DNA of 64,000 nt. Source: Thermus brockianus. GTDB taxonomy: Bacteria; Deinococcota; Deinococci; Deinococcales; Thermaceae. The stretch covers positions 1,674,001 through 1,738,000 of the forward strand of contig NZ_CP016312.1 of assembly GCF_001880325.1 (NCBI RefSeq), written 5' to 3'. This document shows, in pieces, positions 39,219 through 48,693 of this stretch (positions are counted from its first letter, which is position 1; every line of letters begins with the position of its first letter). The notes beneath the pieces were generated by a model. That model searched no databases. It was not told the DNA's origin and saw only the letters and a list, made by a program, of their open reading frames with translations. Position numbers and translations under genes: made by a program.

Positions 39219-40218
39219 GTGTCAAACCCTTATAGGTAAGTTCCAAACGGCTGTGGGGGACTTATCGTCCCTATTATAGTTTCAAACCCTCATAGGTACG
39301 GTACGAACACGCCGCCCCCGCCCCTAAGCGTAGGCGGAAGAAGGCCGAGGACGCCGAGGCGTTTCAAACCCTCATAGGTACGGTACGAACCAGGCACTCC
39401 TCCGGCACGCCGTTAGCGCCCACTTTGAGTTTCAAACCCTCATAGGTACGGTACGAACGAGGTGGAAGGATGCTAGTAGCCTCCTTCAGGGTTGAAAAAG
39501 TTTCAAACCCTCATAGGTACGGTACGAACGTCGGGATAGGGGGGTTCGTAGAGGTTCGTACGGACCTGTTTCAAACCCTCATAGGTACGGTACGAACCGT
39601 GGTCCCCAAGGGGAAGAGGGACATCAAGCACTACGCGTTTCAAACCCTCATAGGTACGGTACGAACAGATGGCCGCATTGTCTACCGAGCCTTGGAGTTG
39701 GGCGGTTTCAAACCCTCATAGGTACGGTACGAACTTGCACGGATAGGGAGCGAGCCAGGGCGTTTGAGGTTGCGTTGGCGTTTCAAACCCTCATAGGTAC
39801 GGTACGAACGTGAAACGGCCTTTTCTGGTGGAGAAGCAGGTTCAGAGGTTTCAAACCCTCATAGGTACGGTACGAACGCCGCCCTAGCCCCAAAAGGCTA
39901 GGGTGGCCGCTACCACGTTTCAAACCCTCATAGGTACGGTACGAACTGGGCATCGTCCTCATCATCGTTATTTTGCAAAGGGCGGTTTCAAACCCTCATA
40001 GGTACGGTACGAACGAAGCCACGCGCCTGGTAGCGGTGTCCACCACCGCGACGTTTCAAACCCTCATAGGTACGGTACGAACTTCCCGACCTCACCCGTG
40101 AGGGAAGCCGGGCCTTGAAGTTTCAAACCCTCATAGGTACGGTACGAACTCAGGAGGTCGCCCTGGTCAAGCACACGACCGGAGGAAGGTTTCAAACCCT
40201 CATAGGTACGGTACGAAC
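39219..40218 (-). CRISPR. CRISPR array, 15 repeats and 14 spacers, no adjacent cas genes
   Basis: The 30-bp repeat on the plus strand starts GTTTCAAACCC and ends GGTACGGTACGAAC. Repeats begin at 39219, 39279, 39361, 39429, 39500, 39568, 39637, 39705, 39780, 39848, 39917, 39985, 40053, 40120 and 40189. All are identical except the first, which has several changes. Spacers are 30, 52, 38, 41, 38, 39, 38, 45, 38, 39, 38, 38, 37 and 39 nt. The worn repeat marks the old, leader-distal end, and the AT-richer flank lies at the high-coordinate side. I therefore infer minus-strand transcription, with the repeat ending TTTGAAAC, like the 8-nt handles of type I-B/III crRNAs. Any Cas proteins would have to act in trans. 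Confidence 0.97.
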
Positions 40219-40438
40219 AGCCACAACATCGTCAGGAACACGAAACACTCATGAAGCTCTAATCTTAGTTTTCAAGAACCACTACGGCCGAGGTGGGAAA
40301 GTTTGGCCGTCTGAGGTCAGGCTAGCAGGGTGGGGGGTAGTGCGTCAACCCCCCCGGGTTTTGGGGGGGATTGGGGGTTGGCGCAATCGTGGATTTGGTC
40401 CAACTTCTTACATAGGGAGATACCAGGTTTAGGTCGCC
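40219..40438 (-). promoter_or_regulatory. probable CRISPR leader and glcF 3' region
   Basis: 220 bp without a gene. The first roughly 65 bp next to the last repeat are clearly AT-richer than the surroundings (for example CTCTAATCTTAGTTTTCAAG), as CRISPR leaders are. Further on, 40341-40385 is a long imperfect dyad: TGCG-CAACCCCC pairs with GGGGGTTG-CGCA around C/G runs. It may end glcF transcription or insulate the array. I see no convincing consensus promoter. Confidence 0.5.
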
Positions 40439-45870: not shown

Positions 45871-46629
45871 ATGCCGAGGCCGAGGGAAAAGGGCGCAAGC
45901 GGGGTGAAGACCTTGGAAAAGGGGCTTGGGGTTCTGGAAGCCTTGGGGGAGCAGAAGGAGGCGGGGCTTTCCGCCCTGGCCGAGGCCACGGGGCTATCCA
46001 AGAGCACCCTTTACCGCCTTCTCCAGACCCTGGTTCGCCGGGGCTTTGCCGTGGAGGAGGGAGGCGTGTACCGGGTGGGGCCCAAGGCCTTCGCCGTGGG
46101 GCAGGCCTACCCGAGGCGGGACCTCCTCAAGGCGGTGCGTCCGGAGATGGAGGCCTTGGCGGGGGAGACGGGGGAGAGCGTCAACCTGGCGGTGCCCGTG
46201 GACGGGGAGGCGCTTTACCTGGACCAGGTGGAGGGGGGGCAACTGGTGCGCCTCTTCACCGCTCCAGGAAGCCGTGCCCCCCTCCACGCCACCGGGGTGG
46301 GGAAGGTCTTCTTGGCCTACCGGGGGGTGCCCGAGGGCCTCCGCCTCATCCCCTTCACTCCCCATACCAAGACCCGCCTGGCGGAGCTCTTGCAGGAGCT
46401 CGGGGAGGTGCGGGCCCAGGGCTACGCCTTGGACAACGAGGAGAAGGAACTGGGGGTGCGGTGCGTGGCCGCTCCCGTCTTTGGCCCTTCGGGGGAGGTG
46501 GTGGCGGCCATCTCCCTCTCCGCCCCGGCGAGCCGGCTTTCCCTGGAGGCGGCCCGGCGGCTGGCCCCCCGGGTAATGGCGGCGGCCCAGCGCGCTTCCC
46601 TGCGCTTAGGGTTCTCAGGGAGCGTATAA
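45871..46629 (+). CDS. IclR-family regulator of the glyoxylate genes
   Basis: 252 residues. The N-terminal winged helix-turn-helix reads VKTLEKGLGVLEALGEQKEA, then LAEATGLSKSTLYRLLQTLV (about residues 12-60). The C-terminal IclR effector domain has LAGETGESVNLAVPVDGEAL and RAPLHATGVGKVFLAYRGVP. In enteric bacteria IclR controls aceBAK in response to glyoxylate and pyruvate. Divergence from aceB, with a dyad between the promoters, makes control of aceB-glcDEF likely here. Confidence 0.88.
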   Translation: MPRPREKGASGVKTLEKGLGVLEALGEQKEAGLSALAEATGLSKSTLYRLLQTLVRRGFAVEEGGVYRVGPKAFAVGQAYPRRDLLKAVRPEMEALAGETGESVNLAVPVDGEALYLDQVEGGQLVRLFTAPGSRAPLHATGVGKVFLAYRGVPEGLRLIPFTPHTKTRLAELLQELGEVRAQGYALDNEEKELGVRCVAAPVFGPSGEVVAAISLSAPASRLSLEAARRLAPRVMAAAQRASLRLGFSGSV

Positions 46630-46630
46630 T
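46625..46630 (+). promoter_or_regulatory. -10 box of the double-HspR gene
   Basis: A perfect TATAAT inside the iclR stop region, about 40 nt before the ATG at 46671. GGGAGGAGCT serves as ribosome site. No clear -35 box is seen. Confidence 0.5.
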
Positions 46631-46670
46631 GAGAAGGGTTAGTGGGGTTTAGCGGGAGGAGCTAAAGGCC

Positions 46671-47378
46671 ATGGACAGGGTCATGGACAAGGACCGCCCG
46701 GTCTATGTGATTTCGGTGGCGGCGGAGCTGGTGGAGATGCACCCGCAGACGCTGAGGCTTTACGAGCGGAAGGGGCTCATCAAGCCGAAGCGGTCTGGGG
46801 GGAAGACGCGGCTTTACTCGGAGCGGGACATTGAGCGGTTGCGGGAGATCCGGCGGCTGACGCAGGAACTGGGGGTGAACCTGGCGGGGGTGGAGGAGAT
46901 CATGCGGCTAAGGGCGGAGCTGGAGGCCCTCCAGGCCCGCTTTGAAGCCGAGGTGGCAAGGCTCAAACGGGAGATTGGGGACCGTTTCCAGGAACTGGAC
47001 CGCAAGGCCCTTCCCGCCCCCGGGGAGACGCAAAAGCCTTCCCCCAAGGACCGCCCGGTCTATGTGATTTCGGTGGCGGCGGAGCTGGTGGAGATGCACC
47101 CGCAGACGCTGAGGCTTTACGAGCGGAAGGGGCTCATCAAGCCGAAGCGGTCTGGGGGGAAGACGCGGCTTTACTCGGAGCGGGACATTGAGCGGTTGCG
47201 GGAGATCCGGCGGCTGACGCAGGAACTGGGGGTGAACCTGGCGGGGGTGGAGGAGATCATGCGGCTAAGGGCGGAGCTGGAGGCCCTCCAGGCCCGCTTT
47301 GAAGCCGAGGTGGCAAGGCTTCGCCTTCTCCTCTTGGAGGAGGGTAAGGCCCTGGAAGAGGGTAGCATGGGGGCGTGA
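46671..47378 (+). CDS. double HspR-like MerR regulator
   Basis: 235 residues built from two identical units. Each unit has the HspR-type MerR DNA-binding domain: [40 protein letters not shown], then [20 protein letters not shown] and a coiled coil [14 protein letters not shown]. Unit 1 spans about residues 7-98 and unit 2 about 126-217, joined by about 27 residues. HspR represses chaperone operons (dnaK, clpB) as a dimer, so a tandem could act as a single-chain dimer or bridge sites. No chaperone gene is nearby. The stop overlaps the next gene's GTG. See the 276-bp repeat. Confidence 0.85.
46688..46963 (+). repeat. 276-bp direct repeat, copy 1
   Basis: Identical over its whole length to 47045-47320, offset exactly 357 bp (119 codons). 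It encodes one HspR-like unit. No difference was seen, not even at silent positions. Confidence 0.95.
47045..47320 (+). repeat. 276-bp direct repeat, copy 2
   Basis: Second copy of the unit at 46688-46963, separated from it by 81 bp that encode the inter-domain linker. Confidence 0.95.
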
Positions 47379-48693
47379 AGACGCTGGAGCCCCTACTGGA
47401 ATTCCTTTCCATCCCTTCCGTATCCACCGACCCCGGCCATAGGGACGACGTGCGCCGGGCGGCCCTTTGGCTCAAGGACCGCTTGGAGGCCTTGGGTTTT
47501 GTCGCCGCGCTCCACGAGACCCCCCTCCACCCCATCCTTTATGCCGAGCGCCTGGTGGACGAAAAGGCCCCCACCGTTCTGGTCTACGGCCACTACGACG
47601 TCCAGCCCCCCGATCCCTTGGAGCTTTGGGAAACCCCGCCCTTCTCCCCGGTGGTGCGGGAGGGGCGGGTCTATGCCCGGGGCGCCTCCGACGACAAGGG
47701 GCAGCTTTGGGCCCACGTGGCGGCCTTGGAGGGCCTTGCCGCCCGGGTGAACGTCAAGTTCCTGGTGGAGGGGGAGGAGGAGATCGGAAGCCCCCACCTC
47801 CTCCCCTTCGTGCGGGAAAACCGGGAGCGGCTTCGGGCGGACGTGGTCCTCATCTCCGACGGGGCCATGTTCGCCCCCGAAACCCCCACCCTCACCTACG
47901 GCCTGAGGGGGCTTTGCTACCTGGAGGTGCGGCTTCAGGGGGCGAGGCGGGACCTGCACTCCGGGGCCTTCGGGGGGTGGCCCCGAACCCCATCCAGGCC
48001 CTGGGCTGGCTCCTCGCCCGGCTTAAGGACGAGCGGACGGGGAAGGTCCTCATCCCCGGGTTCTACGAACGGGTGCGGCCCGTTGCCGAGGAGGAGAAGC
48101 GCCTTTGGCCCGCTTTGGACGAGGAGGCCCTGAAGCGGGAACTTGGGGTGGACTGCCTGCCGGGGGAGGAGGGATATACCCCCTTGGAGCGGCTTTGGGC
48201 GAGGCCCACCCTGGACCCAAACGGCATCTACGGCGGTTACCAGGGGGAAGGGTCCAAAACGGTGATCCCCGCCGAGGCGGGGATGAAGCTTTCCATGCGC
48301 CTGGTGCCGGACCAGGACCCCGAGGAGGTGGCGGACTTGGCCGAGGCCTACCTTAGGGAAATCCTGCCCCCCGGGTACCGCCTCGAGGTGCGCCGCCTCC
48401 ACGGGGGAAGGCCCGTCCTCACCGACCCCTTTAGCCCCCCCATGCGCCTCATGGCCAGGGCCTTGGCGGAGGTCTGGGGGAGGCCTCCCGTCTACGCCCG
48501 GGAGGGGGGGACCATCCCCGTGGTGGCGGAACTCCAGGAGGCCCTTCAGGCCCCCATCGTCCTCCTGGGCCTCGGGCTAAGCGACGATAACCTGCACGCC
48601 CCCAACGAGAAGTTTGACCTCCTCAACCTGGAAAAGGGCATCGCCGCCATAAGGCGCTTTTACGAGCTTTTGGCGGAGGAGGGCCTTCAGTAG
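47375..48693 (+). CDS. M20 family dipeptidase (apparent frameshift)
   Basis: A zinc metallopeptidase of the M20/M25/M40 family, about 439 residues after repair. Frame 1 from GTG 47375 has the metal-binding [20 protein letters not shown] and [20 protein letters not shown], plus [20 protein letters not shown] with the catalytic Glu, up to HSGAFGG. One G appears missing from the six at 47972-47977. Frame 2 then gives [16 protein letters not shown], the dimerisation domain and [20 protein letters not shown], with a final metal ligand. It likely cleaves dipeptides or acyl amino acids in the cytoplasm and could use peptides from the opp system. Confidence 0.9.

Follow-up and report, generated by a model that had tools for sequence, protein, structure and literature searches.

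The heat-shock repressor gene hspR of Thermus brockianus encodes two complete HspR units in a single chain, and sequence comparison indicates that throughout Thermus the two halves of this ancient fusion are kept nearly identical by concerted evolution, with gene conversion as the best explanation. In the window (the whole 64-kb stretch of DNA that was analysed), the fused gene is an open reading frame of 235 amino acids on the plus strand (46671..47378). A direct-repeat search of the window recovered two copies of 276 nt each, at 46688-46963 and 47045-47320, which are 100% identical, are spaced 357 nt from start to start, lie in frame inside this one reading frame, and form the longest direct repeat in the window. 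Both the coordinates and the complete identity given in the first-pass annotation, which had described two identical in-frame copies within one protein, were reproduced. The first copy, unit A (46688..46963), contains a winged-helix HTH followed by a dimerisation helix. It is joined to unit B (47045..47320) by a 27-codon linker carrying an ALPAP motif (46964..47044), which is not repeated and is orthologous across Thermus, and unit B ends in a Thermus-specific C-terminal tail of 18 residues and the stop codon (47321..47378). The other strong repeat family in the window is a CRISPR array (39279-40250) with at least 13 repeats (GTTTCAAACCCTCATAGGTACGGTACGAAC).

The gene is a member of an already catalogued family of fused, single-chain HspR proteins. 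Its product matched the NCBIfam model NF047377 ("heat shock protein transcriptional repressor HspR, fused homodimer type") at 392.9 bits over residues 7-218, spanning the whole model (1-214 of 214) and exceeding the curated cut-off of 300 bits. The model for single-unit HspR, NF047375, matched the protein twice, both times above its cut-off and in one case over residues 10-95, and Pfam MerR_1 was found in two stretches, with a full domain in each copy. These matches bear out the earlier description of two full HspR-like DNA-binding units. In an alignment of 39 proteins, the HTH residues were invariant in both halves. A sequence search for solved structures returned no fused HspR, the nearest entries being GlnR, MerR and CueR chains, and a search of plasmids returned only distant MerR proteins.

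Within Thermus, the two units of one gene are closer to each other than to their orthologues in other species, which is the pattern that defines concerted evolution. Units A and B of the same gene differed at a mean of 2.6 of 267 aligned nucleotides (1.8% at 4-fold sites), whereas like units compared between species differed at 24 of 267 (25% at 4-fold sites). Expressed as mean divergence, this is 1.0% within genes, while between species the unit diverged by 9.3%, the downstream peptidase gene by 15.6% and the linker by 19.6%. When the 15 intact two-unit Thermus genes were compared, the unit B uniquely nearest to each unit A was that of its own gene in 15/15 species, and in a tree of the HTH core the A and B units were sisters in 16/16 Thermus. 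Several of the remaining A/B differences sit at the ends of the units, as expected of conversion tracts. The linker keeps its position, with a spacing of 357 nt in every intact Thermus gene, and diverges as an orthologue, so the pair has not been broken up and formed anew; this fits gene conversion. Templates for such conversion would be available, since T. thermophilus is polyploid (PMC6469415). Ongoing gene conversion was one of three options raised by the first-pass annotation, and it is the one supported by the near-identity of A and B set against the divergence of species and the normal divergence of the linker.

The fusion itself is ancient. Two-unit hspR genes were found in Thermus, Meiothermus, Calidithermus and metagenome-assembled genomes of Deinococcales, and 50 of 111 genomes scored above the fused-family cut-off of NF047377 in a phylum set that does not recognisably cover Deinococcus itself (D. 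radiodurans HspR DR0934). In the Trueperaceae-like family f5, a single unit was present in all six genomes examined, three of which are single-contig and one of which we take to be Truepera radiovictrix. These single-unit proteins share 72-76% identity with the Thermus unit, and five of the six have C-terminal tails reading ALPAP, ALPRP, ALPSP or similar; the corresponding motif of the Thermus linker is ALPAP or ALPPP. An LPxx motif also occurs at the C-terminus of proteins such as L047, L049 and L108, of which L049 and L108 carry it in the linker as well, and in several Deinococcales proteins it is present at both places. Unit spacing ranged from 336 to 369 nt over all fused forms, indicating a similar linker length. 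Because the ALPxP tail of the f5 proteins recurs in the linker, the linker is probably the ancestral C-terminal tail of a single-unit HspR, and we infer that a head-to-tail duplication, in which the stop codon between the copies was lost, produced the fusion.

Three other readings of the identical halves were weighed against conversion within an old fusion. Constraint on the DNA or on codon use could in principle hold silent sites identical, and the unit does diverge less between species than the linker or the downstream gene, but 4-fold sites that vary so freely between species and so little between the units of one gene make this reading very improbable. The first-pass annotation had also considered a very recent duplication, which as an independent event in this lineage only would account for two copies identical at every silent site. 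It is contradicted by the occurrence of fused forms, with linkers that are homologous, among orthologues from the genus, the family and beyond. It also conflicts with the constant spacing, exactly 357 nt in every intact two-unit gene of Thermus, and with the normal divergence of the linker from species to species, and we give it almost no credence. The remaining suggestion of the annotation was an assembly artefact, in which a one-unit gene would have gained its second unit by misassembly. This receives some encouragement from the Thermus assemblies themselves, since of 27 genomes seven had contigs ending inside the gene and four showed a single unit. Of the other 16, 15 contained an intact two-unit gene and one contained two units with a frameshift in the linker. 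The check that had been proposed, whether other Thermus strains have one unit or two, thus came out for two units in the 15 intact genes and for one unit in four assemblies. However, the assembly containing the window, which we infer with good confidence to be that of T. brockianus GE-1, was built from PacBio RS II reads only, from an 8-12 kb library at 156x with HGAP2 (PMC5292009), and with such a library single reads cross the 633-bp repeat region. Two-unit genes are also present on near-closed contigs of 1.87-2.45 Mb in six other genomes (G003, G005, G007, G016, G018 and G026) and in T. parvatiensis RL (L035), which was likewise sequenced with PacBio (PMC5529391). An artefact in this gene is accordingly extremely unlikely.

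The single-unit Thermus assemblies themselves are most economically explained as repeat collapse, and real deletions are possible. In all four (G004, G010, G019 and G024), the start of unit A is joined to the tail of unit B, and on the flank tree these genomes do not group together but lie next to two-unit relatives. The downstream sequences of G010 and G011 are indistinguishable in this tree, and one of these genomes shows a single unit where the other shows a contig break. G019, which appears to be strain CCB_US3_UF1, was assembled from 454 and Illumina data (PMC4599208). T. brockianus YIM 77927 and Thermus sp. 2.9 are also among the strains whose assemblies show one unit. A search for the linker in the single-unit genomes was uninformative, as assemblies with proven breaks inside the repeat also lack it, and a missing linker is thus no evidence of a single unit. 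The gene with the frameshifted linker (L060, Thermus sp. JCM 17653; also L019/L030) has a 1-nt deletion that reduces the spacing to 356 and leaves a first part of 133 amino acids. This assembly consists of about 620 contigs, so the frameshift is possibly a sequencing error. Where a short-read Thermaceae assembly shows hspR with only one unit or in pieces, an error is the likely cause.

In Meiothermus, the halves of the fused gene differ from each other. On the unit tree, Meiothermus A units and B units fall into largely separate groups, and the amino acid differences between them are concentrated at codons ~28-37 (LIxPKRSGGK versus LVxPxRTSGK) and in the C-terminal helix. In three genes (L042, L104 and L037), the divergent segments are separated by 34-41 codons without any A/B difference, silent sites included. 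Conversion therefore seems, from these sequences, to act in Meiothermus too, with the wing difference retained, and the retention points to selection. In two related species of one genus (L106 and L109), the LI-type and LV-type wing segments have changed places between the halves, which suggests that the order of the two does not matter. A bolder interpretation is that hspR is a recombinational switch, such that living Thermus populations interconvert two-unit forms and one-unit forms with a 357-bp deletion. Some of what the single-unit assemblies show would then be real, and selection would set which residues are homogenised by conversion, giving homotypic proteins in Thermus and heterotypic ones, with fixed differences in the wing, in Meiothermus. 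We regard this interpretation as improbable.

The overall explanation that we favour, and consider likely, combines a fused HspR, an ancient duplication, continuing conversion, and a covalent pseudo-dimer on one operator. Sequence comparison shows its first two steps, and its third is based on knowledge of the family. In the ancient step, a single-unit hspR with an ALPxP tail would have been duplicated head to tail into one reading frame, the first tail becoming the linker. In the second step, which continues in Thermus, gene conversion inside one chromosome or from one sister chromosome to another repeatedly overwrites either copy with its partner, such that the DNA-binding and dimerisation segments remain almost the same in any one species even as the species diverge. 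In the third, the two units may pair within the chain, in the way that two separate HspR subunits do, to form a covalent pseudo-dimer. This would bind a single inverted-repeat operator, both at heat-shock promoters and, probably, in the gene's own leader. A covalent link would hold the dimer together at low concentration or high temperature, but the fusion is present in less thermophilic relatives as well, so thermostability can account for it only in part, if at all. HspR has been proposed to act as a dimer on the HAIR sequence, CTTGAGT-N7-ACTCAAG (PMC6102357). The first-pass annotation had envisaged a covalent pair able to lock or bridge operators; nothing was found in support of this, and it is simpler to suppose that the pseudo-dimer occupies a single inverted repeat. 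Dimerisation between chains, bridging two operators or occupying operators with several sites, would be in keeping with the ability of HspR to bind cooperatively across several adjacent sites, as with the three HAIR copies at dnaK of S. coelicolor and the ~70 bp bound in H. pylori (PMC6102357). Against this, the proline-containing linker of ~27 residues corresponds to the ancestral tail and is of similar length in all fused forms. The antiparallel pairing of MerR helices places the end of each subunit close to its partner, and this geometry, known from the family, would favour pairing within the chain. We consider bridging unlikely.

Candidate sites for regulation by the fused repressor were found in its own leader and upstream of dnaK. 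A TATAAT sequence (46625..46630, plus strand), which overlaps an iclR-like gene at the end of that upstream neighbour, is the likely -10 box of the hspR promoter and is conserved in most Thermus hspR upstream regions. It is followed by a dyad, TTTAGC-N7-GCTAAA (46648..46666, plus strand), which spans the ribosome-binding site. It has the spacing of HAIR and is a candidate operator for autoregulation, although it could also be an RNA hairpin. No second exact match to the dyad exists in the genome. In other Thermus it is again found ahead of hspR, where it mostly scores above nearly all shuffles. Agreement with HAIR extends to only 9-10 of 14 positions, and to 9 of 14 for the dyad at 46648..46666. 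The leader from 46636 to 46690 folds as a hairpin with the ribosome-binding site in its loop (-14 kcal/mol, z = -2.4) and may be an RNA element or an operator. Meiothermus hspR leaders have a different hairpin, GGGC..GCCC, at a similar place. A further near-copy, at C2:288785, falls within a phytoene synthase-like coding sequence and was dismissed as a chance match. The genome searched (2,388,273 bases in three contigs, with C1 of 2,035,182 and C2 of 342,792) contained no match to canonical HAIR with fewer than two mismatches and no such site at a promoter; the best match (two mismatches, C1:247090) was set aside, as the non-coding region around it is probably an RNA gene. HAIR scores upstream of hspR in Meiothermus and most other genomes were at background level. 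Upstream of dnaK (L134, L137-L162), nearly all Thermus carry a strongly conserved block, CTCAA(C/G)TCTCTTGAC, over the likely -35 box, which resembles the HAIR arms but is degenerate.

Downstream of hspR, the gene for an M20-type peptidase (47375-48693) is split between two frames. In an alignment with a relative, one base is missing near 47973, within a G-rich run, and most relatives have an intact open reading frame of ~435 codons. The split is either a PacBio indel error or a real pseudogene.

The fused form of HspR was already known, and the evolution of its two halves is not described in the literature searched; what is new is the phylum-wide contrast in how the halves evolve, along with the assembly errors that result. 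Fused hspR offers a natural two-copy system in which to measure gene conversion in a polyploid bacterium, and the comparison of identical halves in Thermus with different halves in Meiothermus provides a test of whether operator symmetry selects for symmetric repressors. The T. brockianus protein shares two HspR units in one chain with the other members of the NF047377 family and nothing structural sets it apart from them, but the family entry, as returned, says nothing of how nearly identical the halves are at the DNA level. The MerR winged-helix unit is common to the fused proteins and to single-unit HspR (NF047375) of S. coelicolor, H. pylori and Truepera-like genomes, which has one unit per chain and is thought to work as a non-covalent dimer, whereas the Thermus form has two units per chain. 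As in the concerted evolution of rRNA operons and similar cases, copies within a genome are closer to each other than to their orthologues. Unlike in those systems, conversion in Thermus hspR would act on the halves of one regulatory protein.
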